Shown here: positions 3,601 to 39,228 of the stretch, in pieces | Layout: each line of letters starts with the position of its first letter | Numbering within the stretch: the stretch's first letter is position 1 | Assembly (NCBI RefSeq): GCF_022458985.1 | Contig: NC_061779.1 | Coordinates: 18,397,001-18,461,000 of the forward strand | Source of the DNA: Mugil cephalus | Lineage: Eukaryota > Chordata > Actinopteri > Mugiliformes > Mugilidae | Length of the DNA stretch: 64,000 bases | Direction: 5' to 3' | Program-made: the position numbers and the translations under genes | Notes under the pieces: generated by a model | What the model was told of the DNA's origin: nothing | Seen by the model: only the letters and a program-made list of their open reading frames with translations | The model's database searches: none

Positions 3601-3718
3601 ATCGGCAGATCTGGTAGCCACAGGTGCAGGGAAAGAAGTTGACGTCATCTATCTCCAGTGGCTCCATGCACAGAGGGCACTCCATGGGGTCGTCCTTCAT
3701 TTCAGGGCTGTTGGACAT
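1..3718 (-). CDS. cnot4: CCR4-NOT transcription complex subunit 4 (E3 ubiquitin ligase), C-terminus cut by window edge
   Basis: RING-type ubiquitin ligase associated with the CCR4-NOT deadenylase, acting in mRNA and ribosome quality control. Coding exons on the minus strand: 3545-3718 (ATG at 3718), 3078-3275, 2800-2886, 2494-2595, 2229-2354, 2013-2137, 1699-1905, 1549-1606, 1157-1412, 485-1003 and 1-221 (continues left). Phases agree throughout. Exon 1 encodes a C4C4 RING starting MECPLCMEPLEIDD (about residues 12-58). Exons 2-4 hold a charged coiled linker and the RRM (LVFVVGLSQRLADPE onwards, to about residue 187). Exon 5 has the C3H1 zinc finger (CSYFLK..MQCPKPDCMYLH). The tail is Ser/Pro-rich, contains 11 consecutive Gln and ends in the LDLNLPPQHNTGLGG block. 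The last exon (KEWQDGLRALLPNININFGG) matches the longer vertebrate isoform. The first donor is AAG|gttcgg, a weak but valid GT. Identification is very secure; the a/b teleost paralogue is not resolved. Confidence 0.96.
630..662 (-). repeat. cnot4: Pure CAG tract coding for Gln11 in cnot4
   Basis: Eleven uninterrupted CTG units on the plus strand are CAG codons in the cnot4 reading frame, giving eleven Gln between SQAS and TASRQ. An uninterrupted triplet tract of this kind is likely to vary in length between individuals. Confidence 0.9.
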
Positions 3719-4099
3719 CCTATGGCGCGGCGAGGGTGAGTATTGAAGCTGGTCACAGAGCACAGGGCTACGAAAACATACAGAAAGCTAAATGTAAGTG
3801 CACCATCCAGACACGGCTGAAAATGAGCAACTGCACAAGAAAACGTTGTCTCTGTTGAAGCTTGAAGCAAACGACACAAACACTGTGATTGACTGCACGA
3901 CTGCAACATCAGACAGTGAACTCACCACAGTACATTTATACAAAGTTTCAACAGCTTGTTAATAGAGGAAACGCTTATTATGTCGACCTTGCATTGCAAT
4001 ACAACACATCTTGCTTGAATGATGGGTATAACGATCAATTGATAAGACTTTTTGTTTATCCTGAGTCAATGTTGTGGTCGTTCTCGAGACTGTAGTGTG

Positions 4100-5639: not shown

Positions 5640-6700
5640 TAACAGCAGCTGTGTTGTTCTGTTGTAATTAAAAGGCTATTAAGATGTTTTGCCCCTTTCT
5701 TTTCTTGGTATTGTGGAGACAATTTACGCTCAAACCACCATCTTAGCTAGCATTATAGTTGGGAGGAGGGAATGGGGCAAGTATTCCGCACCACTGAGTC
5801 TGCGCAGAAGAACAGATGCCTTGTGGGAGATGGTGTTTGAAACTTTCATTCGCCTTTACGCCTCTAGTCTTCTGTCAGGTGATTATTAGCTATTTTCTCT
5901 GCTATATTTATCATTGGTTATTTTGTCATTATTGAATTTAAATCATTGTTCTTTTTAAATTATTCATGTATTTTTATTTAAGCGTTCAACAATGTAGAAA
6001 GTACTTCAAATGAACTTTAAATGAACATATTAGTGCCTTCAAATAATTATCCAATAATTTATTATTAATTACATCTATCCAACTGTACATCCTTCTGTTG
6101 GGCATCGTGAGTGATTAAGAATCATTGTGTTTTTGATAACTTACTCTGCCCTTCTACACTGTGAGCAGGGGTACCACGGTGGTACAGTATGGACAAATTA
6201 AAGAGTGTCTCCGCAGCCACTTTTTTTTTTTTTTTTTCACATTGGAAAAGGGGAGGCCAATTAAATAGAAACACTAATACAAATGTGTGTTAGGCTAGAT
6301 TTAAATAAAGATGGAAGAAGTTGTTGGTTGCCATCTGCAATATCACCACTAGATATCACTGTGAAGTCCTGTGAACTGGTCCTTTAAATACAGTACATCT
6401 CTTCTCATAATAAGAAATCACCGCAGTGCCTTAGAATTTGTAATTTTACTTTCTTTATTTACAAGGATTTGAGTTACTATGTCAAATAACATTCAAGACA
6501 AGGCCACTTTGTGTATTTCGCCAAGAAATCAATTGCTATAGAATAATATAAAACATCAAATAAAATTGGATTTAATGGGATTGTGAAATATGTCATAACT
6601 TTAAGTTTCATTTATTTAGACAAAATATTACACAGGATCAAATCACAAATGTCAAATCTGAAAATCATCAAATAGTTGAAAGTCAAACAAAAGGCAAATA
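5640..6700. other. Intergenic spacer between cnot4 and the pseudouridine gene
   Basis: AT-rich sequence with a poly-T run near 6222-6238. A minus-strand polyadenylation hexamer (TTTATT on plus, 6611-6616) lies about 95 bp past the stop codon of the gene to the right and is its likely poly(A) signal. No gene seen. Confidence 0.5.
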
Positions 6701-14346: not shown

Positions 14347-17300
14347 CTAATAATATTCTGTTAAACCCGCTCTCTCGATAAGAGGTTTGAACACGGTTGT
14401 GGAGCATATGTGAAGCTTTTCAGCCATGTAAAGGTTTGTTTTGTTTATGGTGACTTCTCTTTCTTGCTTCTTCACATGACCAACGACTTCTGAGTCAAGC
14501 CCAGAGTACGTGATTGTGTTGGTGATGGCTTTTGGGTATGGATACATTTCATCTGAAGTCTCCTCAAGCTCCAACTCGGAGCTTTCCAGTAATTCCTCTT
14601 CAAACCACCGTGGATGCTCCAGCTGATAATCACGGAAAGCCTCTATAGCATCGTGCAGGGCTCTGCCCGAGGGACACTGGTGGTATTTGTCCTCTAAAAG
14701 CCCTTCGATCTGCTTCACTCTGCCTGGTTCCTGCTTTTCCGTGTCCAGGATTCTGAAAAAGACCTCCTCGAACTGTTTCATCAGCTTATATCGTACCGTG
14801 ATGTTGAAAGGTGAAGGGATGTCCTCCTCAGAACAAACATCGTCGAAGTAAGCCACGATGTACTTTTTAAATGATGCAGACCGGATAAAATGTGGGACCA
14901 TGAGGCTTAGGGACGGGGTGAGCATGTCGCCTACAGGTGAAAGGGCGTCCTCTTTCAGGAAAATCGGCCTGTCGCTGCACATGGCTCTCCATTTGGCTTG
15001 CACTCCCCGTGAGCACAGGATTAGTATCTTATCTGACGAGTTCTCTATTTGCTCTTTGTGCCAGTCCAGCCACTGGATGCCTCCTAGCACCGCCAGCCGG
15101 GTGGAGTCCAGCAGATCCAGGACCACTTCAGTACCACACTTGGTTGCCAGGAAGGCACAAAGCTTGAGAACAATGTCTTTGTATAAAGGATGGTCGAGGG
15201 AGTAGATGATGAGGACGCGTCTCCTCTCTTGGACCTGGAACACCTCTGGTTGTTCCTTGGCAGCAGGTGAAGATGTGTCCAGCGGATCTGGGAAATAAAT
15301 CTATAATTATTAATCAAGTCGAGCTGCGTGTTATAGTCAATAAAGTCAATTCTTAAGAAGACTAACCTTTGTGATATGTGCTCCACATGAAATACACAAG
15401 ACAACCACCGATGGCAAGCATTCCCATAACGACCTTTATAACCCAAGTCCGTGGATAATCTGAAAAATAGGACACGCACAATACAACTGAATAAACATAT
15501 TACTCTTTAAGTTTAAAGGTAATACAACACTTAAGCCTATTTAGTTTAAAGATCTTCAGCCCAAATATACTGACAACCGCTAATTTATGTTTTGCCATGT
15601 GATTATTAAGAAGTTGTACTTACTAAAGCAGTACATAACTCTTTTCCTGACGCTCCCACAGTCATTTTTGCATCGTATAAAAAATGGCTTGATCTTTGAA
15701 ACAAGCGGAGAAAGATGAGATCTTGACCTTTTACCACAAAAAGGAAGATTACTTTGATGCATTTAAAAAAAACTCCAACTCACCATTATAAGTGTTTCAC
15801 ACTGTGGGAGCTGCCATAATTCAAACTCCAATGTGACGTTCAGCGATGTTCTGTTTTCCTGTTTGTTTCATGAAACAAAAACAGCCACGGTTACTTCTGT
15901 CATCATCGACACGGTGAAAAGCTGCTGCGACGGGTGTAATTACCTTTGAGACATTCTTTGAGTAAAGGACGCCATTGTTCATGATGGAAACTTGGTATCT
16001 CTCTGAATACTGTGCTGTCTCAAAATCCACAACAATGGACACTTTAGATTTGTCGTCAGCCAACACAGCGGCAGACATGTTGGGATCCCACAGGCTTCCT
16101 GAAATCGTCAAAACATAATTGTCCCATTTCTGGATTTTGCTCAATTAAATCTCAAGAGAAGCAAAGAATGTACGTTACCATTTTCCAGGCACATTTGCGC
16201 CATTTGAATTCTTCTGTCAAAACATCCTGACCGTGATGGCAAAGATTAAAAAAAAAATAAGATGATTAGAACATTTTAAGACTCAAGTCTCAACATGCTT
16301 TAACAGATTTGGATCTAACTCACCAGGGACGGTAATTTGCTTTCTAATTCTGTTATCTCCAAACTCAGGTTCTGGCAAATTAACAACTGACACCATGTAA
16401 GTATGCCCAGGCTCCACCACAACTTCATCCAAGGAAAATGTCCACTAATAAAGAAAAACCAAGATGACTAAACATTTTATATATATGCTGTGTGAACTAG
16501 TTAGCACTTAAATCGCAGATGTAAACAAGTGACTTACCCTGTTAGAGTTTGGATTTTGCATTCGTGGAAAACTGCAAGAATACTGAAACTGCACACACAG
16601 ACTTTGATTCGCACTTTCATCCACAATACGTATCTCTGATGCATCAAGGGAACGGATGGACGCTGTGGGCAGACAGAAAAACACATATTTTAGAAGATTG
16701 GCATCTCTAACGCTTTGTGCATAATTGACACATTTCTATTCAAACTTGGATGCACCATTTTGGTAACAAAACTGGAGATTTTAACATTACTCACCATCAG
16801 ATCTTATGTGCCATCCCACATTCACAACAGGAAGGAGACCTTGTTTGTCCACACCGACACTCTCAGGACCCCAGTCTGGGCCGGTTGGAGAAAGTACATT
16901 GCTTGCAACTATGCGTTCGTCCGAGCAGTTGACTGACATTTAAGAAAAGTCTTTCACATTATTATATTTCAAAAACATTTCATAAGTAAAATGAATCATA
17001 AGTAATAACGTGCAGCAAAGGAATCCACTCTTGCAGTAATTTTCTTGATTGTACTTTTTATTCTGCTACATTTATCTGGCTTAATAGCTGCATTTCAAGT
17101 AAAACAATATACAGTATATATAAATAATACATAGTATGATGTGTTATTATAGGTTAAGAATTTATTAAGTCCCTGGGAAAATTCCAAATCTAGCCAGCAA
17201 TTAAAATTTGCCACTTTACCAGCTGCAGCATTGTAGTGACATTATTAACTCAAATGATTTGAGATACTTACGAATTTTGCAGTGGGGAAGACCCTGGAAA

Positions 17301-20115: not shown

Positions 20116-20235
20116 CTATTTTAGTGAGCCATTCACATGATACTTTGAATACATATATCTTTCAATATTAACCATAAAGCGCTTTTCCTGTTCCTCACCC
20201 ATCGCTGCCCCATCTAATCTCCTCTCATCTTCGAG
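20116..20235 (+). promoter_or_regulatory. tnni2 copy 1 promoter and 5' UTR exon
   Basis: CTATTTTAGTGAGCCATTCA followed by CATG (20116-20139) lies about 36 bp ahead of a TATA-like CATATATCT (20152-20160). A pyrimidine-rich 5' UTR exon ends at donor TCGAG|gtaag (20235). The block occurs at the same relative place in all four copies. The A/T core resembles, but does not exactly match, a MEF2 site, and CACATG is an E-box-type hexamer. Confidence 0.65.
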
Positions 20236-21639: not shown

Positions 21640-22834
21640 ATGTCTGAGGGGTGAGTACTTAGCCTCATAAAGTATTTTAAATATTAAAAAGTACCAAAAA
21701 GACAAAAAAGGAGGAGCCACTGAATGTACATTTGACAGCGTCCATCTTTTCACTTGTTTTTGAAGCCTTTTCAGTTCCGTCCCATTGAACCCTAATTAAC
21801 AGAAAATATTGTTTTGTTGCTCTGCTTTATTTTACATGACGATGAAGACCGGTGAGTCGAAGCTTTGTGACATATTCACATTTCAAATGTCATTTATTAC
21901 CTACACTTAGATCAGTATAAAAATGTAATTTTGTAAAAAAATCTGCTTTTTTTTTGTCACAGAGAAAACCAAAATATTCAGCAACACGCCGGCTGCTTCT
22001 GAAGGTAGGTCGCAAGCTCACATACGATCCGCATGTAGTCCGAAACAATCCTGTGCTTCGGTGTTTATCGGGGGCTTCATTAAGGCCTTACTACTTTTCA
22101 GTCCAAACTGCTGAAGAAAGCAGCGTCTATGCTGGTTGCCGAGATTGAGGCCAAAAAACATGAGAAAGAAAGAGTCGTGAGCGAAAGCTTTCCTCCGCTG
22201 AAGTTATCGGGTCTGTCAGTCCAGGAGCTCCAGGTACCGTCACACCAAACCACGCTGATTCATTAACTGTTATGTGAAATCATTTTGACCACGTTCTTTC
22301 TGTACATTTCAGGACCTTTGCAAAGAACTACATCGCAAGATTGATGTTGTTGATGAAGCGCGTTATGATATGGAGGTCAAAGTGGCCAAAAATCAGAAAG
22401 AGGTAAAAAAGAAAAAAAAAAGAAAGAAACTTGATAGAGTTACTGACCTGTCAGGAGCTTGTCTTCAACACGTGATTTTTGTGGAACAGATCGAGACTCT
22501 GAATCTGAAGATCAATGAGCTGAAGGGAGTGAAGAGGCCTAACTTGAAGAGGGTGAAGAAATCAGCAGACGACATGCTGGGTGCATACACCGACACCTCC
22601 AAACTCATGAAGGCTGATTTCAAGGCCAACCTGAAGACAGTGAAGAAAGATGAGGAAAAGGTAAAATTGTCAAATGCCCGCACGTACAGAAAACACATTA
22701 TAAAGTAGTTACTAAACGGTGCAATGTACTTCATGTTTTTATTACAGAGGGAAGAAGTAACAGACTGGCGTAAGAACGTGGAGGCCATGTCTGGCATGGA
22801 GGGCAGGAAGAAGCTGTTTAATGCTGGACAATAA
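21640..22834 (+). CDS. tnni2: Troponin I, fast skeletal type, tandem copy 1 (divergent switch region)
   Basis: Inhibitory subunit of the sarcomeric troponin complex; it binds actin and troponin C. Coding exons: 21640-21650, 21831-21865 region (4-nt microexon ACCG before gtgagt), 21963-22004, 22102-22233, 22313-22402, 22490-22660 and 22748-22834. They give 178 aa with all phases matching. The N-terminus is MSEGPRKPKYSATRRLLLK. The TnC/TnT-binding helices include KLLKKAASML and LCKELHRKIDVVDE. The inhibitory/switch exon reads [20 protein letters not shown] and then LGAYTDTSKLMKADF. It is one codon shorter than in the other copies and lacks their LGALLG(A/S)K run. The last exon ([20 protein letters not shown]) is almost identical to copy 2. 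Probable poly(A) hexamer ATTAAA at 22889. Which numbered zebrafish tnni2 paralogue it matches is not known. Confidence 0.93.
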
Positions 22835-23377
22835 GAAAATGTTCACATGTTCACTTGAAGCAAGGTTTAACGTTGTTTTATTTTTTAAATTAAATCCCTT
22901 TGTTTAACATGTTTCAGAATTATTAAATTTAAGAAGGTTTCCATTTCAGGTGGGAATTAAACTGAGATTAAACTCTTTACTATACTTATCATGACCTAAT
23001 CGAAACTTGTATGTAAAAAATACTACTGCACTGTATAAAATACTGTATTCTTTACTTGTTGAAGTTGTGCTAAAGAGAGTGCTGATAAGCTTCGTGCCTT
23101 TGCAGTATCTGTATTACACAGATGATGGCACTGTCCTACTGTATGTAATACATGTGATGCTGATTAAACAACTATGGCCATATTTCTGATTTGTCTGCTT
23201 TTAAAACATATTCCCACGTTTAATATATAACTCTGATCTTCTTCCAGTGACCCTGTAGTGAAAACTAATGATGATAACTCTCATTGTTTAGTATTCTGTT
23301 AAAGGTGGTACCAGGCGATGCCATGTACAAGTGTTATACAGTGATATACAATACACTGGCTGTCAGTACAGAGGAGG

Positions 23378-23499
23378 CTATTTTAGTTGGCCACTCACAG
23401 AAGGCAAAAAGCACACATAAAATGTGACATGAGTTTTCTTCTTGTCATTTAAAGACAGAGACTGATCACATCAGCTGGGTTTTTCTGCAGAGATAAAAG
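23378..23499 (+). promoter_or_regulatory. tnni2 copy 2 promoter and 5' UTR exon
   Basis: CTATTTTAGTTGGCCACTCA (23378-23397) is the second instance of the array's promoter block, with ACATAAAA about 39 bp downstream. A probable 5' UTR exon ends at AAAAG|gtatgt (23499). The E-box-like CATG of copies 1 and 4 is replaced by CAGA here. Confidence 0.6.
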
Positions 23500-24208
23500 G
23501 TATGTGTCGGTTTAAGGATATTTCATGGACATGGTCTTCCACCAACTGCATTGATGTGATGTAATTAAACGAGTGTCTTATTAGATTCTGACACATGCAC
23601 CGCCAAAGGAAAAGAGAAAGCATTTTTTTAGTGTGTATAAATACTATACTATTATATATTTTAGAGAAGCTAGAATGTATAATAAATACTACATATATTG
23701 TAGATTGAGAATAGAGAATGAATATAATCTGAGAATTGATGTACATGTTTGAACCAGTTCAAATTATTTTAAAGTGCCCTTCAGCCAGTCACTATCCGAG
23801 TAGTAACTACTGCATATACATTTTCCACTATCTTAACAAGTGCCGTGTTCTATCATATATCTTCATCTTATTCTGCAATAACTAATGACGAGTTTGCTTC
23901 TGGTTTGGCTGTCTTAAAAGTGGATTAACTCCCATTAAGATCAAAAAAGGAAACATGATCCAAAGTATGTGTAGCACTCAAGCAGACAGTGCTGCTAATT
24001 TAAAAGGCTTATTGGCGGTATGTTACCGTTCCAAGGTCTGCATGACTCAAACTTGGCTCTGTCATCAAGAAGTGAATAAACACTATGCTTGAAGTGAAGA
24101 GCTGAGTGTCTATACTGCATCTTGTAATGATTTTACTGCTTCTAGTAGTAATGCACTTTTCTGATTTAAGAATAAACGAGTCCATTTTTTTACAGACAAA
24201 AAACAACA

Positions 24209-25685
24209 ATGTCGGAAGCGTAAGTGATTTTTTTTTTTTTCAAATTATCTTAATTGATATTTTTATAATCAGAAAAATTCCTCAGATATTTAATATGTCA
24301 GCACTAATTTTAATTTTATTTCTCCTCCTTTTCCATGTCAAATTAACCACCACAGGCCGGTAAGCTATTCGTATAATTCATTTACAACAGCTCACCTAAA
24401 AAGCAATTCTTTTTCACATGTTTGCACTCCAACTCATGTATGTATACTGTTTATTTGCAGAGAAAATCAAAGATCTCTGCATCTCGCAGACTGGCTCTCA
24501 AGGTACTGTCGCCTTTGGCTTCACGACAGCTGATAAGATTGAAATTACAAAACCGCCAGTGTGAGAAATTTCATCATTTCTTTTGTCATTCAGACCAAGC
24601 TGCTTAAAATAGCAGCTGGGATGTTGGAGAAAGAGAAAGAGGAAAAGAGGCTGGAGAAAGAAACTACTCTGGGGGAAAGAGTCCCTCCACTTCAGCTGTC
24701 TGGTTTGTCCCTGCAGGACATTCAGGTATGTGCAAGTCACTGCATGAAATGTTCCACACATATATATACATACGTACCCATCTACTGCACGTATACGCAA
24801 TAAATGTCCTGCATACATGGTACTGACGTACAGCAGGTGCATTCGAGGATAAGTGTCTCGACTACAAGGTCCTCATACCCTTGCTTTGTAAAGCCGGTAT
24901 CATTCTCTTTGTTTCTGCAGACTCTGTGCAAAGAGCTGCACCATAAGATTGATGTGGCAGATGAAGAGCGCTATGACATTGAAGCGAAGGTGATCAAAAA
25001 CGACAAGGAGGTGCGTAGCCATTCATATTTTTGAGTTACATGTGGATGTGTTGATTTTTATGAATGTCTTGATTTAGCACGAGCTGTTCTTACTGGACGC
25101 AAAAAGCAGCAAACGTAGAAGAATAAAGATGCTCTGCCATCAACATTTAGGATTACTCTGTGTGGTTTTAGTTATTTAACAACAGTTTTTAGCCGACTGA
25201 ACTTGATTATTTTAAATTGGTGGCCAGCCTAAACCTAATCATCCATTTTTTTTTATTGTTTCCTTCAGATTGAAAACCTGTCCGCAAAGATCTTTGAGCT
25301 GAAGGGGAAGATGAAGAGACCTGCTCTCAAGAGGGTGAAGATCTCAGCCGACGCCATGCTTGGAGCTCTGTTGGGCGCTAAGGTCAAAGAGTCTGTGGAC
25401 TTCAAGGCCAACCTGAAGACTGTGAAGAAAGAGGATGAGAAGGTGAGTGTTCAACTATGGAGGTAGACAGATTTATTTTTAATGAGTTGGTTTACAGCTT
25501 GACTCTTTATTTGATTTGAATTATGGTACAGTACTGTATGTGGGTGATATGTTGGTGTTATTTTGAAATTAATGAGTATTTTTCTACCCTATGAACAGAA
25601 AGAGGAAGTGACTGACTGGCGTAAGAACGTGGAGGCCATGTCTGGTATGGAGGGCAGGAAGAAGCTGTTTAATGCTGGACAGTAG
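24209..25685 (+). CDS. tnni2: Troponin I, fast skeletal type, tandem copy 2
   Basis: Same role and exon plan as the neighbouring copies. Coding exons: 24209-24219, 24356-24359 (4-nt microexon GCCG), 24461-24502, 24594-24725, 24921-25010, 25269-25442 and 25599-25685. They give 179 aa. The start [19 protein letters not shown] is followed by the amphipathic TnC/TnT-binding segment, [20 protein letters not shown], then a canonical inhibitory peptide ([18 protein letters not shown]) and switch helix ([15 protein letters not shown]). It ends [23 protein letters not shown]. Poly(A) signal AATAAA at 25936-25941. Intron 5 is 258 bp. It looks fully functional. Confidence 0.95.
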
Positions 25686-25949
25686 ATTCATATTTCCGGA
25701 CACTTTTAAGTCTGAATGCTGTTTTAGAGGGGAGGAGAGTGAAGAGGAAAAGAGGTAACGTCACCGCACACAATTACGAAGCACGATCTCTATGTTGGAG
25801 AGTGTGAGGGTGTGGGTACGGACTTACCAAAATACAACATGCAAACATAAGTTGGCAGGAATGTGATTATATATTTTGCATTAAAGTTACACTGTGTTTT
25901 ATGCTGTTGGCACAATGTCTGAAAAACACCTTGTTAATAAAAACGTCTG

Positions 25950-27330
25950 ACTGACACTCTCACTGCTTTTTTTCATTTTCCATACTCACTTTATGACCCG
26001 AGTCACTCCTTGACATTAGCCTGGGAGCACAAAAATAAACCAGATGGTAGAAAAGGTTCCAGCACTTGTCAGCAACAACAGCTGAGAACAAAGTTATCAA
26101 ATCATCTTTTCAAATCAAAGCGCATGTAACATGAAACCCAACGTGGAAACTGGGCTCCAAAAGGCTTTCACTTAAAGCAATGTGGGAGCAGTCAGAGTGT
26201 CAGTCGCCACGATCACTACTGGTGACAAGGTCAGATATCAGAGCAAATTCATATAAAACCGTTTTCATATTTTGGACAGCTTTTGTACTGTGAGAAGAAT
26301 GTAATTATCTCGCAAGACAACTACGGTATAGCTACAGCAATTATAGGGAAAACCTCGTGATTGTGGAAAATACGTTAATGGTGCGGGGAGAGATTATAAT
26401 AACACTTAATAAGGTGTTAAATAGTTGTGACGTGCGCAAACTCCAGACTGCTGCTTATAACTTTGATTTGTCCTATCTATCAGCCAAAATTCTACACCCA
26501 TAGTTTCCACCTTGTTGCATCTAGGACGCACAACGTCCTGCATTGGAAGTGAATGTAGGAAGAAAGGTCATCATGAGTGACACCATGGGCAATAAGACTC
26601 ATTTTATACTACCGAGTGAAAGTCTCTTATGCGCATCCTAAAATAATACTTGACCTGTGAGCCCCTTTTCTTCACTATTCTATTCTTGTTGATTGTTTTC
26701 TGCCTAGCTGTCCTTATGTGAGTTCATGAGTATCAGCCATTTGACTATCGGTTACCACACGGGCTGACATCTGGTAGCCCCGATACACACCTGTCCTTGT
26801 TTCTCCACTCCCCTAAGTAAAACCGGACTAACCTTTAACTTTGTTCTTATTTCCAATGTGGCCCTGCGACAATAGTCTGTCATCACACACATGTAGAGGA
26901 ATAGAGATGTACATACAGCTAAGATAGTATATGCTGAATATTGTACTTTTAGTGGTCGACTTACAGTCACGAAAACTAGGGACGGGTGTGGGAATCGGAA
27001 CTAAAAACCTCCATAACCTAGAGACATTATTAGATGTTGACAGATAAAAGTATATATATAGATGGCACATGTTTGTTGGTCTCCTTAGCGTCTTGCTCCA
27101 AACTTTGGCGAGCAGGCTGTGGTCAAATGTGAACAATGACCGATGGCGGGGGTTCAGCCACCTCTTTAAAGTCTCACTGTTACTTCCACTAACAGGTGTT
27201 ACAGAAACCTTGTAAGACGCCCAAATCACCAAACCTATAAATGAAGTTTTATTACCGCTTCTCCTCTTCGAATATTGTGGCGATGCTATGCGCAATTGTA
27301 AATGTCACAGCTGGCGGAGAGTGGACAGAA
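25950..27330. other. Spacer between troponin copies 2 and 3
   Basis: About 1.4 kb with no recognisable gene. A 155-codon minus-strand open frame near 26.8-27.3 kb has no recognisable domain and was not called. Confidence 0.4.
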
Positions 27331-27345
27331 CCAGTGGCACAGTGA

Positions 27346-27477
27346 CTATTTTAGTGAGGCATTCACGTTTAGCAAGGGCACCATAAATCTGATTGATTTT
27401 TCTCCACAGTCTTTCAGAAAGCTGACGGTGCCACTCCTCACACACGCAGGTTTGAAGTTGGTCTCAAGGAACAGCAG
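27346..27477 (+). promoter_or_regulatory. tnni2 copy 3 promoter and 5' UTR exon
   Basis: CTATTTTAGTGAGGCATTCA (27346-27365) is followed about 36 bp later by CATAAAT. Two donors are possible for the 5' UTR exon: CGCAG|gtttga (27449) and CAGCAG|gtacgg (27477), the second nearer to consensus. The coding exon begins more than 1 kb downstream. Confidence 0.6.
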
Positions 27478-28199
27478 GTACGGATATCCTGATATTCTGA
27501 TAGATATTTGGTTTGGACTGACTTATTCTGATGCTTAATTCTGCTTTATTAGTTTTTTTTATTATGTTTAGGAAAACAAATCTTAACAATTAACTACTAA
27601 TATCTCAGATTCACATTAGTGCCTTGTTTTTCCTTTGTTTGCTTTACTGGGATATTGTCATTGCTTAACATTAGCAGCAAGTTGAACGTTGCCATCTTAC
27701 ATGCCTGCAAATTATCTGCTCATTCACCTTTTTTCATCACCTATGCAGAAACTCTCATCAGTTATTTTAACACATGCACGTCCTCGGCTCTTTGAAACAT
27801 GACACATACGAAATGTTTTGAAAGTAATTTGTCTTCTTAGTACTTGAGAAAGATTTACCATGCATTTAATGGAATTTTGACTTAATATGCATTTGAAATT
27901 GTAATGTATTTTTATATCATATCTGTATTATTCTTTGATTATATATATAACTTATAAGGACGACTGAAATAACAAGCAAGCAAAGTACAATAACGAAAAC
28001 AAAATGCTAATTATGACAGAACCACAAACTTTTAACCTTTAGACATTTTAGTCAAACAAAAAATAAACCTAGCGAGCTTTAATGGACAACTGAATGTTTT
28101 GGGTAGCTAAGATATTTTGGCCCGTCGAGTAGAGAGACGATCAGTCATCAGCATGCTGCTCAAGCGAACAGGTGTTAAAGGAGCAGGGAAATTAGCGTG

Positions 28200-28450
28200 C
28201 ATGTTGCGTCAAATGATCGACCATTGGGGAGCTGTGGATGGAGACACAACCAAAGGGTCCCAGGTTTGCCTCCCAACGTGTCCATGACCGTGGTGCCAGC
28301 ATCCAAACCCCAAATTGCTCCCCGGGTGCAGTCCCTAGAGACTGCAGCCCACTGCTCCCACAGAACACACTACTGTGTGAACGAATGGATGGGTCAGACA
28401 GCAGGAACAAACTTCCCCATTGAGGGATAATTGAGGGTTACAATTATTAT
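28200..28450. mobile_element. Degenerate fish SINE-like repeat
   Basis: Contains CCCCAAATTGCTCCCCGGG, CAGCCCACTGCTCC and GAATGGATGGGTCA in the order found in a common fish interspersed repeat, ending in a TTATTATAATTATT-type tail. A B-box-like GGTTTGCCTCCC suggests a tRNA-derived head. It lies in the 5' UTR intron of troponin copy 3. The family name is not assigned. Confidence 0.5.
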
Positions 28451-28502
28451 AATTATTAACGGATCTTTCTTTTGGATTCTAGTGCGGGATTTTAAGACAA
28501 CC

Positions 28503-28864
28503 ATGGCTGATGGGTAAGTATTATCACTTTTGGTTTAATTTTAATGTGTTCGTTACAAAGCATCAGAAAATATACTGTAAAACTATGTGTTGAGATTCAA
28601 TTAGTAAAAATGTATTTTCTCCTTTTTATTAATGCTCCAACAGACCTGTGAGTATTTAACATACATTTATCAATATGTTTAACAACTGTTGTTTCAAACC
28701 TTGTATTAATCTGTTTATGCACTGTCACATATATATATTAAGAATATTAAATGTGTTCATTGTATGTTAATTTATAGAAAAAATCCAAGATCTCCTCCTC
28801 TCGGAGGCTGGGGCTCAAAGTAAGTTTTTCATAAGTTAGAAGACAGCATAAATTGATGTGTAAA

Positions 28865-28938
<74 letters not shown>

Positions 28939-31900
28939 ACGGCCTTTTAATAGTGACACATGCTTGTATAAATTTGCTTTAAATCTATTGCCATCTATGT
29001 GACCCTTTTCCCCTCTAGATTAGACTCTTGGCAGTCGCTGCTCAGATGCTGCAGGAGGAAACTGAGCAGAAGATAAAGGAAAGAGAAGCTGCTCTGGCAG
29101 AAAGAGTTCCTCCTCTAAATATGTCTGGTTTGTCTTTGAAGGAGCTGCAGGTATTTTACTTCAAATTGTTTTTTGCTTGTTTTTTTTTTGTTTGTTTGTT
29201 TTTTTATCTTTCTCTCTCACAGCTCTTTCTGTTTGGATCAGTACATTATTCCAATACCACTAGAGGGTGTCTTATTTGCAGGACCTATGCAGAGATCTGC
29301 ACCAGAAGATTGATGTTGTGGATGACGAGCGTTATGATATCGGCCTCAAAGTTACCAAAAATGACAAGGAGGTGAGCTGCTCAAAAATAACTTAAAATAT
29401 ATGTACATGTAAATATTTGTTACTGCATCTGCCTGGGAAAACAGGGTCAAAAGAAAATGAAAACAATACATGAATACATACTGCCCCCATGTGGCAGGAT
29501 ATAACCACATAGTAAGATATCAGAATCGGGCAGAGGGACTGTTTTTCTTGTAATTTCAAGTTGTTGTTCTCATTTATTCAATGAAAAATTGTATTGAGAT
29601 CAGGATCTCATTGGCAAGAGAGACCGGGACACAAAAATACACAGCTCATTGATTGACTTTAGTCAACAATCACGCACACCGACCTACTGGGAACAGCTTA
29701 ATATTAACTATATGAAACAATAAGTCCAATATTGACTCTATTTTTCCTCTGACTTTGAGAACATTTCTGACTGCATCAGCTGACAACGCCCCTTTGTCAT
29801 AGTGATTTAAACAAAGAGCTGAAACTCATCACTAAGCTCTGTGTAGCTGAGGGGAGCAACACATTCAGTCAATAATTCTCTGTAACTACGAGCAAGGCCA
29901 CAATATTTTCATACTTTCATTTGATTAACTGTCGTTGTAAAACATCAGTTATGGCTGCTTTAAATATATACTCTGACTTTGTCATGTAACGAAATAGAGA
30001 CAGAACACTTGGAGTAAATTAAAAAGTTGACTGTGAGTAAACAACCTGCTCTAACTCACATTCTCTGTATGAGTTATTGAACAGGGCTAAACCAAGATGC
30101 CACACAATGCTAAATTATTGACAGCATAGTTGTTTGGTGCCAAATAATTATTGCACATATTTAATGAAAAACAAAATCCCAGACGATGACATTTATATTC
30201 CGTATTAGGGCTAGACAAATAATACCACGGATTGGTATTGGCTATATACCAAAAATGGGGCGCTGCGCAATCATGAGGTTCACTACCAATAAAACTGACA
30301 AGACTTCCTAACCACTGATTAATCCGTGAAAGTAGCAATTAAACTTGTTTTCTCTGCATATTTTATTTATGCAACTCTGGTAATTAAAGTAAATACACTA
30401 ATATGTGCTTATTATTTGTGATCAATATTTGTTTTGTAGTACTAGTACTGTAGGGTTTCAGTCTTCAATGTCCATTTAACTGCCCTTTCCAGAGCCTTTA
30501 TATTTATGAGGATCTGAGTAAACTGACTCCTAATTAAAGTTGTGTTTTATATACACTGCTATTTCAAAGTTCAATGGTGTAAGCACGAGTACACAGTAAC
30601 TTCAAATTTAGTATGTGAGATTCCAACAATTTTAAAAACACAAATTTTCTCTATCTCCTGACATTACGGACCTCCTTCCTAACTGTATTGGCCTTGATTC
30701 GTTTTTTAAAATTTTATATAATAATGTAATTGACTGACCTCATAATCCAAACAATCATTTGAACTTTAAATGATTCAAGTAGAGACTCACAAGTAGAGAT
30801 ACTAATAAATCCCATGTTTATAAAAACCCATGACACCTCCCATGTTTATAAAACCCAATATAGGGAAAATGACGTGTGAACTGGTGAGGGTCAGTATATT
30901 AAGTGTTAATCACCTGATTTGATCACCTTTACACGCATACGGACTTAAGTGACATCCCATTCTTAATCCATAGGGTTTAATATGACGTCGACCCACCCTT
31001 TGCAGCTATAACAGCTTCAACTCTTCTGGGAAGGCTGTCCACAAGGTTTAGGAGTGTGTTTATGGGAATAATTGGCCATTCTTCCAGAAGAACATTTGTG
31101 AGTTCAGACACTGATGTTGGACGAGAAGTTCCTGGCTGGCAGTCTTCATCTAATTTATCCCAAAGGTGTTCTTTAGGTTTGATGTCAGTTCATGTGCAGG
31201 CCAAGTCAAGTTCTTCAACGCCAAAGTGCCTCACACAGATTCAGCCATGACACTCCCAGATGGAGGAACTTGATTCGTCACTCCATAGAACGTCTCCACT
31301 GCTCTAGGGTCCAGTGGCAGCGTGCTTTACACCACTGCTTCCGACACTTTGCATTTCACTTGGTGATGTTTGGCTTGGATGCAGCTGCTCGGACAGGGAA
31401 ACCCATCCCATGAAGCTCTCTACACTAATCTGAAGGCCACATGAAGTTTGGAGGTCTGTAGTGACTGACTACAGAAAGTTGGTAACCTCTGTGCACTATG
31501 CTCCTCAGCATTCGCCGACGCCGCTCTGTCACTTTTACGTGGCCATGACACTTCGTGGCTGAGTTGCTGTCGTTCCAAGTCGCTTCAACTTTGTTATATT
31601 ACCGCTGACTGTGGAATACTTAGTGAGGAAATTTCACAAATGGATTTGTTGCACAGGTGGCAATGGCATCCTATTACAGTGCCACGATGGAATTCACTGG
31701 GCTCCTGAGAGCGACACATTCTTTCACAAATGTTTGTAGAAGCAGTCTGCATACCTAGGTGCTTGATTATATACACCTGTGGCCATATAAGTGAACACTG
31801 TAATACTTCTGAGCTTTCTTAAGCATTGTATTCATGTTAAATAATAGCTGTGAGGCTAAACTACCCTTATATGTCCAACTGACTTACCAAGGCACTCCGT

Positions 31901-32283
31901 TCTTTCACTTCCCCCTGTCCAGATTGAGAACATGAACCTGAAGATCATAGAGATTCAGAGTAAGTTCAAGAAGCCGACCCTGAAGAGAGTGAAGATCTCA
32001 GCTGAGGCCATGCTGAGCGTTCTGCTGGGCTCCAAGCATAAAGAGTCCATCGACTTCAAGGCCAACCTCAAAACGGTCAAAAAGGAGGAAGAAAAGGTAA
32101 AGCTATAGTTTTCTTTTGCAGGCTCATACACCTTCAAGTAGCGATTATTTTTGTCCACTTCAATATTTTATCAATGACGTACTATTTCTATAACAGAAGG
32201 AGGAGGTCACTGACTGGCGTAAGAACGTGGAGTCCATGTCTGGTATGGAGGGCAGGAAGAAGCTGTTTGACACCTCCAAATGA
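28503..32283 (+). CDS. tnni2: Troponin I, fast skeletal type, tandem copy 3
   Basis: Coding exons: 28503-28513, 28644-28647 (4-nt microexon ACCT), 28778-28819, 29019-29150, 29282-29371, 31923-32096 and 32197-32283. They give 179 aa, all phases consistent. N-terminus [19 protein letters not shown]. The inhibitory/switch region is the most distinct of the intact copies: [20 protein letters not shown], then [16 protein letters not shown]. The FKKP and SKHK features recall mammalian TNNI2. The C-terminus is DTSK rather than NAGQ. Intron 5 has grown to 2551 bp (87-258 bp in the other copies) and contains a decayed Tc1-like transposon. Splice sites flanking it are intact, so the gene is probably active. 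Confidence 0.95.
28865..28938. repeat. (ATCT)n microsatellite
   Basis: About 18 perfect tetranucleotide units in intron 3 of troponin copy 3, about 80 bp before exon 4. Long and uninterrupted, so probably polymorphic. Confidence 0.97.
30897..31812 (-). mobile_element. Decayed Tc1/mariner-like transposon
   Basis: Sequence of about 0.9 kb resembling the common fish Tc1-like element in reverse orientation. Recognisable blocks run from CACCTTTACACGCATACGGA on the left to ATACACCTGTGGCCAT on the right. The minus strand retains pieces of the transposase N-terminal helix-turn-helix ([17 protein letters not shown]) and parts of its catalytic region. It is shorter than a full element and lacks an intact transposase frame, with an internal deletion near 31.23 kb. 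It lies in intron 5 of troponin copy 3 in antisense orientation. Confidence 0.85.
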
Positions 32284-32649
32284 AGAAATTACTTCACTTT
32301 CAAATCAGTTCTTGCCATTGCTTACTTTCTCACCTAAATTATATGGATTTATGAATTGAAAGTCAATCTTGGAAAGCCATCCTTCACTGAAAGAAGACAG
32401 GTGTTGGGATTCCGGCGTATCTTAACTTATTTATTAAACATTTGGTGTGTGGATGAGTACGTTTGCAGCACTTCCCCTCTGCAGCCTTGTGATGGCAGCA
32501 TCATTCTTTCAAGGCGTCTCAATATACTGAGACGCAACAATACAGTGTGTTGACTGTAGAGAAATATTGTTAGTCATAAACAACTGCTTGTTAGTCATCT
32601 CTTGCGATAAACTGCCCATTATTTCCAAGCCATTAAAATGTATTGGTTA

Positions 32650-32950
32650 TTAAAGGTATTTCTAAAAATGAAACGTTACGACTTCTGTCTTTGTTTAAGT
32701 TATTGTTACATTCACATTTGGTTTAGGTTTTTCATTAACTCTCAACATCATTATCACTTTGGGCTGCATTTGGGGTCAGCTTTAATTCAGCTCATAATGA
32801 AACCTTAATAACAGTCTGAAGTTCTTTACCCTCTCCTGCTTAGGAGGCAAACAGAGGAGCTAAGAAAATGTCACAGGTGGACAGTCCCCAGTAAGAACTT
32901 TCACACCTCATACGCGAGGCATATGAGAGATGCAGTGCAAGAATGGAAAG
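32650..32950. other. Spacer between troponin copies 3 and 4
   Basis: The shortest spacer in the array, about 0.3 kb between the likely 3' end of copy 3 and the promoter block of copy 4. Contains CAGGTGGACAG (about 32875), also present just upstream of the copy 1 block. Confidence 0.5.
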
Positions 32951-32960
32951 GACAGACGGG

Positions 32961-33044
32961 CTATTTTAGTGAGCCACTCACATGGGCGCTAGAATCTATA
33001 TATCTACCCTCTTTCTTCCCTTCTTGTCTCAGAAAAAGACGCCT
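32961..33044 (+). promoter_or_regulatory. tnni2 copy 4 promoter and 5' UTR exon
   Basis: CTATTTTAGTGAGCCACTCA followed by CATG (32961-32984), a TATA-like TATATATCT about 36 bp later (near 32997), a pyrimidine-rich leader and donor GCCT|gtgagt (33044). Best-preserved match to the copy 1 promoter. Confidence 0.65.
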
Positions 33045-33625
33045 GTGAGTATTTGTCAGTTACCGTATAAGGTAAGGATTTTATTTTGAAACTACAGATC
33101 ATGTAGAGATGATCTTATTGCAATATACTTTGATTGAAAATTGTGTTTCCACTGATACACATACTTCAGTTTAATTTTATATTGATGATAGTTTAACTTA
33201 CTAAAACCGTGCATCATATTCATTTTAACAGGGGCTCATAATAAGTGAGTTTTTTCTTACCAGGTCTGAGATTTGCTTCTGATCTCCCACAGATGTCTTA
33301 GCTGAAGTTATAAATAACCCAAAAGACTCTGTATTTGATTTATGAGCTTTACCCCAACAAACGCTACTCCCTTTAGATTACATGTGTATTTTTTTCACTG
33401 ATTACTTGTCAGGAAATTATAACTATTGTTGTCCTTGTTTTATGGAGTATTTCTTTTATTAGAGATTTGACCTTCAGACAGTGCCATGCATAGAGTGAAC
33501 GCCGCTATAACATCTTAGCAACAATGTTAAATAGCTGAAAGGTTTACGACTTCTTTGTATCCTTCGGTGAAAATACATATTTTTATATTACCAGATTCAA
33601 CAAGGTCGTACACAAAACCGCAATC

Positions 33626-35565
33626 ATGTCTCAAGGGTAAGTAACCATTAGTTTCATTACACTACACTTCATATTTATTGTGCGAGATTCAAAAAAACGT
33701 TAAAATCTTTTCTCTATCTTTTTGCACCATGAATCTCCTAACTGTACAGGCCTCCGGTGAGTTGAGTTTTTATTTATTCATCATTTTTTAATGTTGATTT
33801 CTGGACTTATGGAATCATTTATGGGACTGATGCTGATATTCTGACTCCTCATGTTATGTCCATGAAATGTAAAACTACAAGAGAGACCTTGTTTAACACC
33901 CTGAACTAAAAATATATTTTAGTTAGAGATTTTATTTAGTTAAACATCATAAAATTCAAAGCATCGCTGTGTTTATACTGGACTACTTCTACATAGATGA
34001 TTGTAAAATCTTACTAACCCTTGAAAAATTGGATGCATACTTGAGAGAAACCTGAATAAACTAACCTGCACACTCTCGTCCTTTCCAGAAAGCCAAGCCA
34101 AAGATCTCTGCATCTCGCAGACTGTTCTTGAAGGTACAGATGCAAAAACTGAGATTTATACTCCTCAAGTGCCGTAAACCATTAAATGTCAGGATTAATA
34201 AAGTGTCCTTCTGCATTTGCACCAGACAAAACTGCTCAAGAAGGCCATGACCATGCTGGATAATGAAAAGGAATTCAGACAAGATGAACGACAGAGGATT
34301 CTTGGCGAGAAAGTGCCAGTCCTCCAGCTTTCAGGCATGTCTGTGCAGGATCTACAGGTACATTTATCACTAAGAACATAATTAATCCATTCGAGGGGGA
34401 TTTGGGTTATGACTTAAGCTATTGTAAAATAAGAAAGGGTTAAGTTGAGTGGTATCCCTTCTTCCCACCTAAAGTACTTCAAATGACACTTGCTAATTTG
34501 TTTGGGTTTATTTACAGAGGTTTTAAAAGAAAATAATGTCAATGAAAACTATCTGCAGCCCTAACATTAGTGTATTGAGTAGAATAAAACTGAAAACTTA
34601 CATAGAATCACATAGACTTAGACAGACTTTAATGATCTGCAAGGGAAATTAATTGATCATAGCAACTTAATTGGCACAAAAAGATGAGCTGTTATACAGC
34701 TGGATAGAATATGGAATAAAAGTTCTGTAGTGTTCACTATGGCAGCGGAGCTGAATCATTCTGCTGGGCAATGAGCTCCTCTGACCCTCTAATGTTTGGT
34801 GTAGTGGATGGGATGGATTGTCCATAATGGAGAGCAGTAGCATAACAAATCACTGCACTAACATTACAGTTAGTCCAATAACTGGCGCTCTAACAAGTTT
34901 GATACATTTAAGGTTTGCTTTCCGCAGAATATTTGCAAGGAGCTACACCATAAAATTGACGTGGTTGATGAAGAGCGGTATGATATTGCTTCTAAGGTGA
35001 CAAAAAATGAGCGCGAGGTAAGACATGCTTGTAGAAACTTTCTACATGAAATCATGCATGCAATATTCACGAAAAACAAAACTTTAGAGCAGGGTACTGA
35101 ACGGGTTTCTTGACTGTGTTCGAAACAGATACAGGACTTGTCTCAAAAGATCTTTGAGTTGAAAGGCAAGATGAAGAGACCAAACCTGAAGAGGGTGAGG
35201 GTGTCTGCTGATGCCATGCTGGGAGCTCTGCTGGGCTCTAAAGTCAAAGAGTCTGTGGACTTCAAGGCCAACCTGAAGACTGTGAAGAAAGAGGAGGAGA
35301 AGGTAAGGTGTAGGCCAACGCTTAGATGTGTGCACAACTGTGTGAAACCCGAGTGCATACTGCAAAACTTATGATTCCTAAATCTATTTCATGTGGACAA
35401 GTGTATATGATCCCCAACTTACCTCACTACTTTAATCAGAGTGAAATGATTCAAATCTTCTCTACTATCACCCAACAGAAAGAGGAAGTGACCGACTGGC
35501 GTAAGAACGTGGACGCCATGTCTGGAATGGAAGGCAGAAAGAAGTTGTTTAACTCTGGGCAGTAG
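33626..35565 (+). CDS. tnni2: Troponin I, fast skeletal type, tandem copy 4
   Basis: Coding exons: 33626-33636, 33750-33756 (7-nt microexon GCCTCCG), 34089-34133, 34226-34357, 34928-35017, 35129-35302 and 35479-35565. They give 181 aa. The microexon and exon 3 each carry one extra codon, so the frame is kept: [20 protein letters not shown]. Canonical inhibitory ([18 protein letters not shown]) and switch ([15 protein letters not shown]) peptides follow, ending [23 protein letters not shown]. The TnC/TnT-binding exon has [20 protein letters not shown]. It is the last copy, with no fifth promoter block or exon seen to its right. Probably functional. Confidence 0.95.
34615..34860. mobile_element. 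Fish interspersed repeat fragment (unclassified)
   Basis: GACTTTAATGATCTGCAAGG, GAATCATTCTGCTGGGCAAT and GGATTGTCCATAATGG occur in the same order as in a very common fish repeat, probably the untranslated part of a non-LTR element. It lies in intron 4 of troponin copy 4. Family assignment is from memory only. Confidence 0.5.
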
Positions 35566-37507: not shown

Positions 37508-38031
37508 GTAAGGAGGTATTTTTTTTTTTTTTAATATCTTGGTCATTTTGGGATGAGGTTGTTTCGTTCGTGCCTGGGGCTCTGTTTTATATATTTCTCC
37601 CGTGTTCATCTCGGTCCGAGCGGCTGCAATGCACGCAGCATTAAGCATTAGTCGGTTAGTTTACCCATCCTTTCATGTTAGCTAAAACGCTTTCTAGCAG
37701 CATCCACTAAACAGTCAGCATACACAATTAGCCATCCTTGCCTGTTGTTTTGTGTCTGGCCTGGGAAGAAATGGTTAGTCAGTGTAATGGCTTTAGATAA
37801 CCGCCTTCAGCACGTCACATTTTTAAACATAACCTCTAACCTTTTGGTGGCCCTGCCTCCATAGAGTCCCTGCTCCTGATCTCAGATCACAGTTCACCTG
37901 GGAATAAGGCAGGCTGTACACTGTATGCTGGAGGTTCGTGGCATTTGCTCAAATTCATGTATGTATTTCCACTTTTGCTGTCACTAAATACATGATTAAA
38001 TGTGTGCAGATTTCTGCTGCTAGCCCTCCGG

Positions 38032-39228
38032 ATGTCCAAGTACAAACTCTTTCTGCTGAGGCATGGAGAGGGGGCCTGGAACAAAGAGAACCGTTTCTGC
38101 AGCTGGGTCGACCAGAAGCTCAGCGAAGATGGCGTGAAGGAGGCCCAGGACTGCGGCCGGCTCCTGAAGGAGCAAGGCTACAAGTTTGACTTGGTGTTCA
38201 CCTCCATACTCAGCCGCTCCATCCAGACCGCATGGCTGGTGCTGGAGGCCATGGGTCAGGAGTGGGTCCCTGTTGTCAAGTCATGGAGGCTCAACGAACG
38301 GCACTATGGTTCCCTGATTGGACTCAACCGGGCAGAGATGGCTTTACAGCACGGAGAGGAAAAGGTGAAATTGTGGAGAAGGAGCTATGACATCACTCCA
38401 CCCCCGATCGAAGAATCCCACCCGTACTTCCTGGAAATCTACAGTGACCGCAGATATGCGACTTGTGACATACCAAAGGAGAGTCTTCCCCGAGCTGAGA
38501 GTCTGAAGGAGGTGCTGGACAGGCTGTTGCCTTACTGGGACAGCACTGTTGTCCCAGAGATAAAGAAAGGCAGGACTGTGCTTATTTCTGCTCATGGAAA
38601 CAGCTGCAGGGCCCTGCTGAAACACCTGGAAGGTATGCTACAGAACAGCACTATTGTAAACAGTGCTCTCAGAGCTTTTGTGTTCGTGGGGTGAATACAT
38701 TCAGTAGAAATCAGCTTCTGCTTTTGAACACTGCTGGCTTCCGTTTCTCGTCGTTGTATTAGGAAGGACTATTTCAGTTCCTGAAATGGAAGGTTGAACT
38801 TGTGTAAAAAGGCCAGTGAGTTTATGTTACATGGCCGTGGCAATGAAACCCGCGCTGACCTTTTAACACACTTGTCCAGAGGGCTCCATGTGCCACGGGC
38901 CACTCAAAACTTAACACATTTACTGCTACTATAGATTAGACTCTTATCTTGCACATACTAGAACAATCTGCCATTACTGCATTCCTGAATCTATTGTCAT
39001 TACATTGCTCTTATGCAATTGAATTTAACTCTGCAATTTTTTTTTCCCACAGGTATATCAGATAATGATATCGCCAACGTGACTTTGCCTACAGGCGTGC
39101 CTGTGCTGCTGGAGCTCGATGAAAACCTCAAGCCTGTGAAACCTCGAAAGCTGTTGGGAGACCAGGCAAAGATTGAGGCAGCCATTAAAAAGGTGGAGGA
39201 CCAGGGAAAAGCTAAGCCGTCAACTTGA
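38032..39228 (+). CDS. bpgm: Bisphosphoglycerate mutase
   Basis: Cytosolic enzyme of the Rapoport-Luebering shunt; it makes 2,3-bisphosphoglycerate, the modulator of haemoglobin oxygen affinity, and has minor mutase and phosphatase activity. Two coding exons, 38032-38632 and 39053-39228, total 777 nt (258 aa; human 259). Starts [20 protein letters not shown] with the phosphohistidine His11 in RHGE. It also has [39 protein letters not shown] and the second catalytic His in [17 protein letters not shown]. The Gly after RH in RHGEGAWN marks BPGM rather than PGAM1/2 (which have RHGESxWN). The start is set by homology. Followed by cald1 on the same strand. Confidence 0.97.

Follow-up and report, generated by a model that had tools for sequence, protein, structure and literature searches.

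Probable coding micro-exons of four and seven nucleotides in a tandem cluster of TNNI4-type troponin I genes of Mugil cephalus, with a candidate one-nucleotide exon in a paralogue

Contig C10 (NC_061779.1) of the Mugil cephalus genome assembly (GCF_022458985.1; 24 contigs, 635 Mb) carries four troponin I genes in tandem on the forward strand, between 21.6 and 35.6 kb of the 64,000-nucleotide stretch analysed here (C10:18397001-18461000, hereafter the window). Between the exon that bears the ATG and exon 3, each gene contains a putative exon of only 4 nt (copies 1-3) or 7 nt (copy 4). We put at about three in four the probability that the four tandem genes are teleost troponin I genes of TNNI4 type and that these small exons are genuine coding micro-exons, probably included constitutively. 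Their position and phase, the need of the frame for them, the proline codon they complete, their GTRAG donors and the recurrence of the same design in paralogues are all read directly from the DNA. When the four proteins served as tblastn queries (E up to 0.001), the window gave no match outside these copies.

The coding exons of copies 1-3 measure 11, 4, 42, 132, 90, 171 or 174 and 87 nt, and those of copy 4 measure 11, 7, 45, 132, 90, 174 and 87 nt. In copy 1 the coding part of the ATG exon (ATGTCTGAGGG, 11 nt, 21640..21650) is followed by the micro-exon ACCG (21848..21851, with a weak acceptor and the strong donor GTGAGT), by exon 3 (42 nt, 21963..22004, with a tandem acceptor AG/AG) and by exons 4-7 (132, 90, 171 and 87 nt, 22102..22834). 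Copy 2 comprises an 11-nt coding part of the ATG exon (24209..24219), the micro-exon GCCG (24356..24359, donor GTAAGC), a 42-nt exon 3 that also has a tandem acceptor AG/AG (24461..24502), and exons 4-7 (132, 90, 174 and 87 nt, 24594..25685). The corresponding features of copy 3 are the 11-nt coding part at 28503..28513, the micro-exon ACCT (28644..28647, donor GTGAGT), the 42-nt exon 3 (28778..28819) and exons 4-7 (132, 90, 174 and 87 nt, 29019..32283, one intron being 2551 nt long); those of copy 4 are the 11-nt coding part at 33626..33636, the micro-exon GCCTCCG (33750..33756, donor GTGAGT), an exon 3 with one extra codon (45 nt, 34089..34133) and exons 4-7 (132, 90, 174 and 87 nt, 34226..35565). 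Each micro-exon with its flanks occurs once, on the forward strand. A preliminary description of this DNA had located all four correctly, and its ACCG "near 21.85 kb" is now fixed at 21848-21851. Its assignment of the genes to the troponin I family is borne out by matches to Pfam Troponin PF00992, a family that also takes in troponin T: the proteins of copies 2, 3 and 4 score above the cut-off (160-166 bits), copy 1 is matched exon by exon in the genome search only, and the copy 2 protein aligns over nearly its full length to solved troponin I chains.

In all four copies the length of the micro-exon is 1 mod 3, and it follows a phase-2 ATG exon and precedes a phase-0 exon 3. With it included, the frame is open from ATG to stop throughout (178, 179, 179 and 181 amino acids in copies 1-4), in agreement with the exon sizes and the multiple-of-three arithmetic proposed earlier, and a proline codon is formed after codon 4 in every copy (MSEGP, MSEAP, MADGP, MSQGP). 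If the micro-exon is skipped and the normal exon-3 acceptor is used, the frame shifts in all four, with stops at codons 17, 24, 37 and 18. Read-through of the first donor was rejected as a way round the micro-exon, with a stop at codon 5 in all four copies. Other acceptors within exon 3, an AG at +29 (copies 2 and 3) or +32 (copy 4), would also keep the frame and would remove most of the exon.

Splice sites were scored with a weight matrix built from 20 other junctions of the same four genes, and AG...GT pairs were considered across the interval wherever both introns remained at least 60 nt long. The micro-exon ranks first of 10, 29 and 71 such pairs in copies 2, 3 and 4 respectively, and in copy 1 it ranks 15th of 72 overall and third of the 8 pairs that are open and in frame. 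Counting the micro-exon itself, open and frame-compatible pairs number 8, 2, 2 and 5 in copies 1-4. Among 2000 dinucleotide shuffles per copy, 675, 148, 22 and 79 contained a micro-exon no longer than 12 nt that suits the frame and scores at least as high as the one observed (790, 227, 23 and 108 when lengths up to 16 nt were allowed), and 5, 1, 0 and 4 contained such a micro-exon with a GTRAG donor and a proline at codon 5, the proline condition having been chosen after the data were seen. As judged from these counts, the case against chance is modest for each copy taken alone and not significant for copy 1 alone, and is strong for the four together.

Some observations in copies 1 and 2 weigh against the micro-exons. 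The acceptor of the copy 1 micro-exon scores only -3.4, whereas the 20 acceptors used for training range from 5.9 to 13.8; two other in-frame pairs in this copy score slightly above it, and there are better-scoring pairs with the same donor, although these lead to a frameshift or a stop. An alternative in copy 2, a 58-nt exon that shares the donor of the micro-exon, likewise preserves an open frame (4.5 vs 5.8 for the micro-exon). Lastly, exon 3 of both copies begins with the tandem acceptor, so that skipping combined with use of the AG 2 nt downstream keeps the frame, giving in copy 1 the N-terminus MSEGKPKYSATRR. Because the acceptor of copy 1 is weak, the call in this copy rests on the frame, on the donor, on the proline codon and on the 43 nt without any AG that precede the micro-exon and follow the branch-point-like CTAATTAAC and its AG; we infer that CTAATTAAC may serve as the branch point.

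It could be argued from the 8, 2, 2 and 5 open pairs, from the low rank of the copy 1 micro-exon and from the close 58-nt competitor in copy 2, that a different and longer exon or another start codon is joined to exon 3 and that the sites 4-7 nt apart are coincidental. We regard this as highly improbable: in copies 2-4 the competing pairs have lower scores, none was seen to be common to the copies, the ATG exon encodes MSEG, MSEA, MADG or MSQG in each of the four, and two TNNI1-like genes elsewhere in the genome repeat the design with strong sites. The tandem acceptor raises a separate alternative for copies 1 and 2: splicing might always or frequently leave out their micro-exon and enter exon 3 through the second AG, yielding an in-frame protein two residues shorter; exon 3 of the fast-type genes likewise begins on the third base of a codon. 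The second AG scores below the first in both copies, however (4.7 vs 13.8 in copy 1 and -2.3 vs 10.3 in copy 2), copies 3 and 4, which do not offer this option, have no near equivalent, and a proline codon and GTRAG donor would be unlikely to persist unused in copies 1 and 2, so this route is very unlikely as the usual one. Since the second AG is the poorer site, a minor skipping isoform is the most that would be expected from the +2 acceptor. The earlier claim that only the tiny exon keeps the frame is thus correct with the normal acceptor, but does not extend to the +2 acceptor of copies 1 and 2. Through the same AG/AG arrangement a troponin I gene might come to dispense with its micro-exon.

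The four copies have diverged enough for their similarities to be informative. By the NG86 method, dS exceeds 1 in all six pairs of copies and dN is 0.15-0.29; YN00 failed for four of the six pairs, and dS values of 2 and 4 denote saturation. No alignment between introns of different copies was better than E 0.07. As synonymous sites are saturated and introns cannot be aligned, the shared place, phase and NCC core of the micro-exon form a preserved island and carry information. The preliminary description held that the copies support the call independently; they have indeed diverged independently, but as tandem paralogues they are not independent in origin. A distinctly unlikely alternative for copy 1 is that its micro-exon is in the course of being lost or that the whole gene is decaying, as its weak micro-exon acceptor, its divergent inhibitory and switch region and the longest end branch in the tree might suggest; yet its frame is open across all seven exons and its dN is well below dS against every other copy. 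Exon 6 of copy 1 is also one codon shorter than in the other three copies, and the inhibitory and switch region unlike theirs (window 22490-22660) may perhaps reflect a changed regulatory property.

Upstream of each copy lies the 21-bp motif CTATTTTAGTGAGCCATTCAC (copy 1, 20116..20136, forward strand) or a variant of it (copy 2, 23378..23398; copy 3, 27346..27366; copy 4, 32961..32981; all forward strand), and the pattern, which was written after the four instances had been seen, has no further match on either strand of the window. We take it to resemble a MEF2 site with a neighbour, and it is likely to be a shared muscle promoter element.

The class of the window genes is indicated by their neighbours. 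BPGM adjoins the cluster (open reading frame 37996-38694, ATG at 38032), matching bisphosphoglycerate mutase at 365 bits vs 269 bits for phosphoglycerate mutase 1, and a caldesmon match lies near 57.4 kb, at 35.9 bits and so under the curated 50-bit cut-off. The TNNI4 locus of fishes and amphibians lies beside BPGM and CALD1 (Joyce et al. 2022, PMC9825255), and these flanks, common to the published TNNI4 genes and to the window, point to the window copies being at that locus. A further troponin-family match at C10:18465590, 4.6 kb beyond the window, fits TNNT4, the third neighbour expected at that locus. In a tree of 11 sequences, all from this genome and including three of the seven fast-type genes, the four window copies form one clade (98/98), separate from a pair on C1 and C4 (99/97), a pair on C22 and C10 (100/99) and the fast genes (100/99). 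Only the TNNI4 label of the window copies is based on synteny; the labels TNNI1, TNNI5 and fast used for the paralogues come from sequence and the tree. Zebrafish has 14 TNNI genes with two series of tandem duplications (PMC9825255). A transcriptome table for sole includes "troponin i4b, tandem duplicate 1" (PMC6754371), and tnni4a is listed as a ventricular signature gene of the zebrafish heart (PMC11170199). The main text of PMC9825255 nowhere uses the word "exon".

Genome-wide, we found at least eight non-fast troponin I genes, four of them the window copies (scoring in the genome search is confined to the top candidates, which makes all counts of paralogues lower bounds). The two TNNI1-like genes each combine a 14-nt ATG exon with a 7-nt micro-exon in the same place as in the window copies: GCAAGAG in the gene on C1 (L016), whose score was reached in 10 of 2000 shuffles, and ACTGGAG in that on C4 (L019), reached in 6 of 2000. 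As 7-nt exons occupy the same place in two further genes of this fish, the micro-exons of the window, including those of 4 nt, are not surprising for troponin I and are to be expected for the family. In the fast-type genes (at least seven), exon 3 begins on the third base of a codon in all seven, which means that no micro-exon is needed; their ATG exon is 8 nt long in six and 11 nt in one, with joins read by eye. This suggests that the fast-type genes represent the end point of micro-exon loss through a shifted exon-3 acceptor. Six of them form a second tandem cluster (C10:25380867-25426176, L010-L015) in which the micro-exon is not needed. One intronless PF00992 match (L001, C22 near 4.16 Mb) was considered as a troponin I retrocopy and rejected, being troponin T (best match cardiac troponin T, 272 bits); it is a cardiac-like gene with a 316-amino-acid open frame (L001:1141-2091) and is likely a retrogene.

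The preliminary description also stated that exons this small escape ordinary exon definition, which accords with what is reported for the chicken troponin I mini-exon, part of a short exon-intron-exon unit of under 300 nt (PMC1831480). By the mechanism that we favour, the window micro-exons would likewise be too small to be defined on their own, and would be recognised together with the small upstream exon as one exon-intron-exon unit, from which the short inner intron would then be removed. The predicted upstream exons of 29, 24, 31 and 42 nt and introns of 197, 136, 130 and 113 nt give units of 230, 164, 165 and 162 nt in copies 1-4, all below 300 nt. The corresponding downstream units span 157, 147 and 176 nt in the first three copies but reach 384 nt in copy 4, leaving the upstream unit as the only one common to all four. 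Two findings tell against this part of the interpretation: the predicted upstream-exon acceptors are weak in copies 1 and 3 (1.5 and 3.9), and the 24 introns of the four genes have a median length of 130 nt, so that short introns are general here and the geometry is permissive rather than specific. The micro-exon itself would be retained as a frame lock, kept because its loss shifts the frame, while its residues would matter little. The encoded residues precede the first troponin C-binding helix and are probably disordered, a situation easier to reconcile with a frame lock than with a functional peptide. Such an element may change in threes (GCCG vs GCCTCCG), and may vanish if the exon-3 acceptor shifts to match, a course that the fast-type genes suggest.

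With the normal acceptor, every copy would run into a stop by codon 17-37 if the micro-exon were skipped, and the micro-exon might therefore act as an on-off switch, in which skipping, frameshift and decay of the mRNA would allow inclusion to tune the expression of each copy to the muscle type. RBFOX proteins promote inclusion of micro-exons in brain, muscle and heart (PMC4317164), and expression of tnni4a is reduced in zebrafish hearts without two Rbfox genes, which could mean regulation, although the cited passage is silent on tnni4a splicing and the loss could be indirect (PMC9534849). Against this, the donors are strong, and none of the four window micro-exons has the RBFOX site UGCAUG (TGCATG in the DNA) within 250 nt. 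GGG is absent from seven of the eight introns flanking these micro-exons, and counts of TGCATG, GGG, TCTC, TGC and YGCY reveal no intronic signal common to the four copies. With no TGCATG nearby and no GGG in seven of eight introns, nothing points to regulated inclusion; a switch is in our view unlikely, and we infer that inclusion of the window micro-exons is probably constitutive.

The remaining non-fast genes, both TNNI5-like, bear on how far such an exon may shrink. In L020 (C10 near 13.1 Mb), an 11-nt ATG exon (ATGTCTTCTGA) and a 42-nt exon 3 need 1 mod 3 nt between them to keep the frame. The best of 16 single solutions is a one-base exon, A at L020:6079 (CATCACAG/A/GTAAGT), with a score of 13.6 compared to 11.8 for the runner-up, a 7-nt exon TAACATT with donor GTACTA. 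When chains of two exons were built from sites scoring 3 or more, the best joined A at 6079 to a 27-nt exon at 6191-6217, giving MSSEFTPTKVDGKPKCKISASRKLSLK. An equally good single solution of up to 16 nt was present in 91 of 2000 shuffles, and site pairs of any length from 0 to 16 that score 13 or more occur at a background of 0.46 per kb. The A is followed, 14 nt downstream, by a TGCATG, the sole one within the downstream 250 nt among eight micro-exon candidates, but at a window density of 0.33 per kb this is suggestive only; RBFOX could hold the exon through this downstream UGCAUG. We propose, at somewhat less than even odds, that the micro-exon is a frame lock whose size can drift, provided that its length remains 1 mod 3 behind an ATG exon of phase 2, that in this one fish it spans 7, 4 and 1 nt, and that L020 holds a true one-nucleotide exon. 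Followed by the 27-nt exon, this candidate would, with similar reserve, give MSSEFTPTKVDGKPKCKISASRK, and it tentatively predicts mRNA joins of ATGTCTTCTGA+A+TTTACACC or ATGTCTTCTGA+A+CCAAAATGC. If true, L020 would be a nuclear muscle gene of a vertebrate with an exon of a single nucleotide.

The other TNNI5-like gene, L017 (C22 near 7.79 Mb), does not fit and counts against so orderly a picture of the family, having a 21-nt ATG exon (MNPKGDK) that joins exon 3 directly in frame. Between the two exons lies the strongest short site pair listed, CTGCA (L017:4045-4049, minus strand, 5 nt, 11.3 + 8.3), inclusion of which would break the frame and which may be a remnant, a decoy or the sign of a misread start; a TGCATG lies 140 nt upstream of it. 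Between L017 and L020, dN is 0.12 and dS 1.79 over 148 codons, a ratio indicating that both genes are under constraint.

Upstream of the troponin I cluster the window holds three other features, all on the minus strand: a RING_4 zinc finger (3533-3787), which we take to be CNOT4-like, Indigoidine_A fragments (10.3-12.1 kb) and a SEFIR-domain gene (14347-15300).

In kind, a troponin I exon of 4 or 7 nt is known from human TNNI1 and from bird fast troponin I. The mini-exon of Sterner and Berget (1993) is reportedly a 7-nt exon of a fast-type gene, dependent on the upstream exon, whereas three of the TNNI4 copies in the window have 4 nt and the fourth has 7 nt. Corin et al. (1994) are said to have found 4 bp as the smallest exon of human slow TNNI1, with the size and phase seen in the window, although human TNNI1 is of a different paralogue class and the TNNI1-like genes of this fish carry 7 nt. 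The second exon of human TNNI3 is 13 nt long. Among the matches listed, the portions of the literature covered contained no text stating 4-bp or 7-nt sizes for troponin I exons, and no mention of a TNNI3 boundary at c.11/c.12 was found. Like the window copies, the chicken mini-exon belongs to the troponin I family and sits in a short exon-intron-exon unit (PMC1831480). The boundaries c.24/25, c.108/109 and c.150/151 given for human TNNI3 in a variant table define a 42-nt exon equal in length and phase to exon 3 of the window copies, together with an 84-nt exon coding for an N-terminal extension that the window copies do not have (PMC4815569). In 2015 the smallest constitutive exon then known was stated to be 6 nt (PMC4674806), a statement that, as it stands in the cited passage, either overlooks the troponin I exons or counts only tested cases.

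Single-nucleotide exons have been described in Arabidopsis APC11 (PMC4674806), Fusarium CYP621A (PMC12940212) and placozoan mitochondrial cox1 (PMC5436844). No vertebrate nuclear example was seen among the literature matches, which is weak evidence of absence in partial texts, and no comparison of micro-exon size across the paralogues of one genome was seen in a coverage mostly without subscription journals. What appears to be new is therefore the series of micro-exon sizes within one genome and the candidate one-nucleotide exon of L020. This series would offer a natural gradation towards the minimum spliceable exon, of 7, 4 and perhaps 1 nt, or gone, in one genome and under a known frame constraint; automatic annotation of teleost troponin I N-termini may also be wrong. 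As the cited passages describe them, the one-base exons of APC11, CYP621A and cox1 keep the reading frame, as proposed for L020, but none belongs to a vertebrate nuclear gene, and L020, as a candidate, would extend this small group to one.

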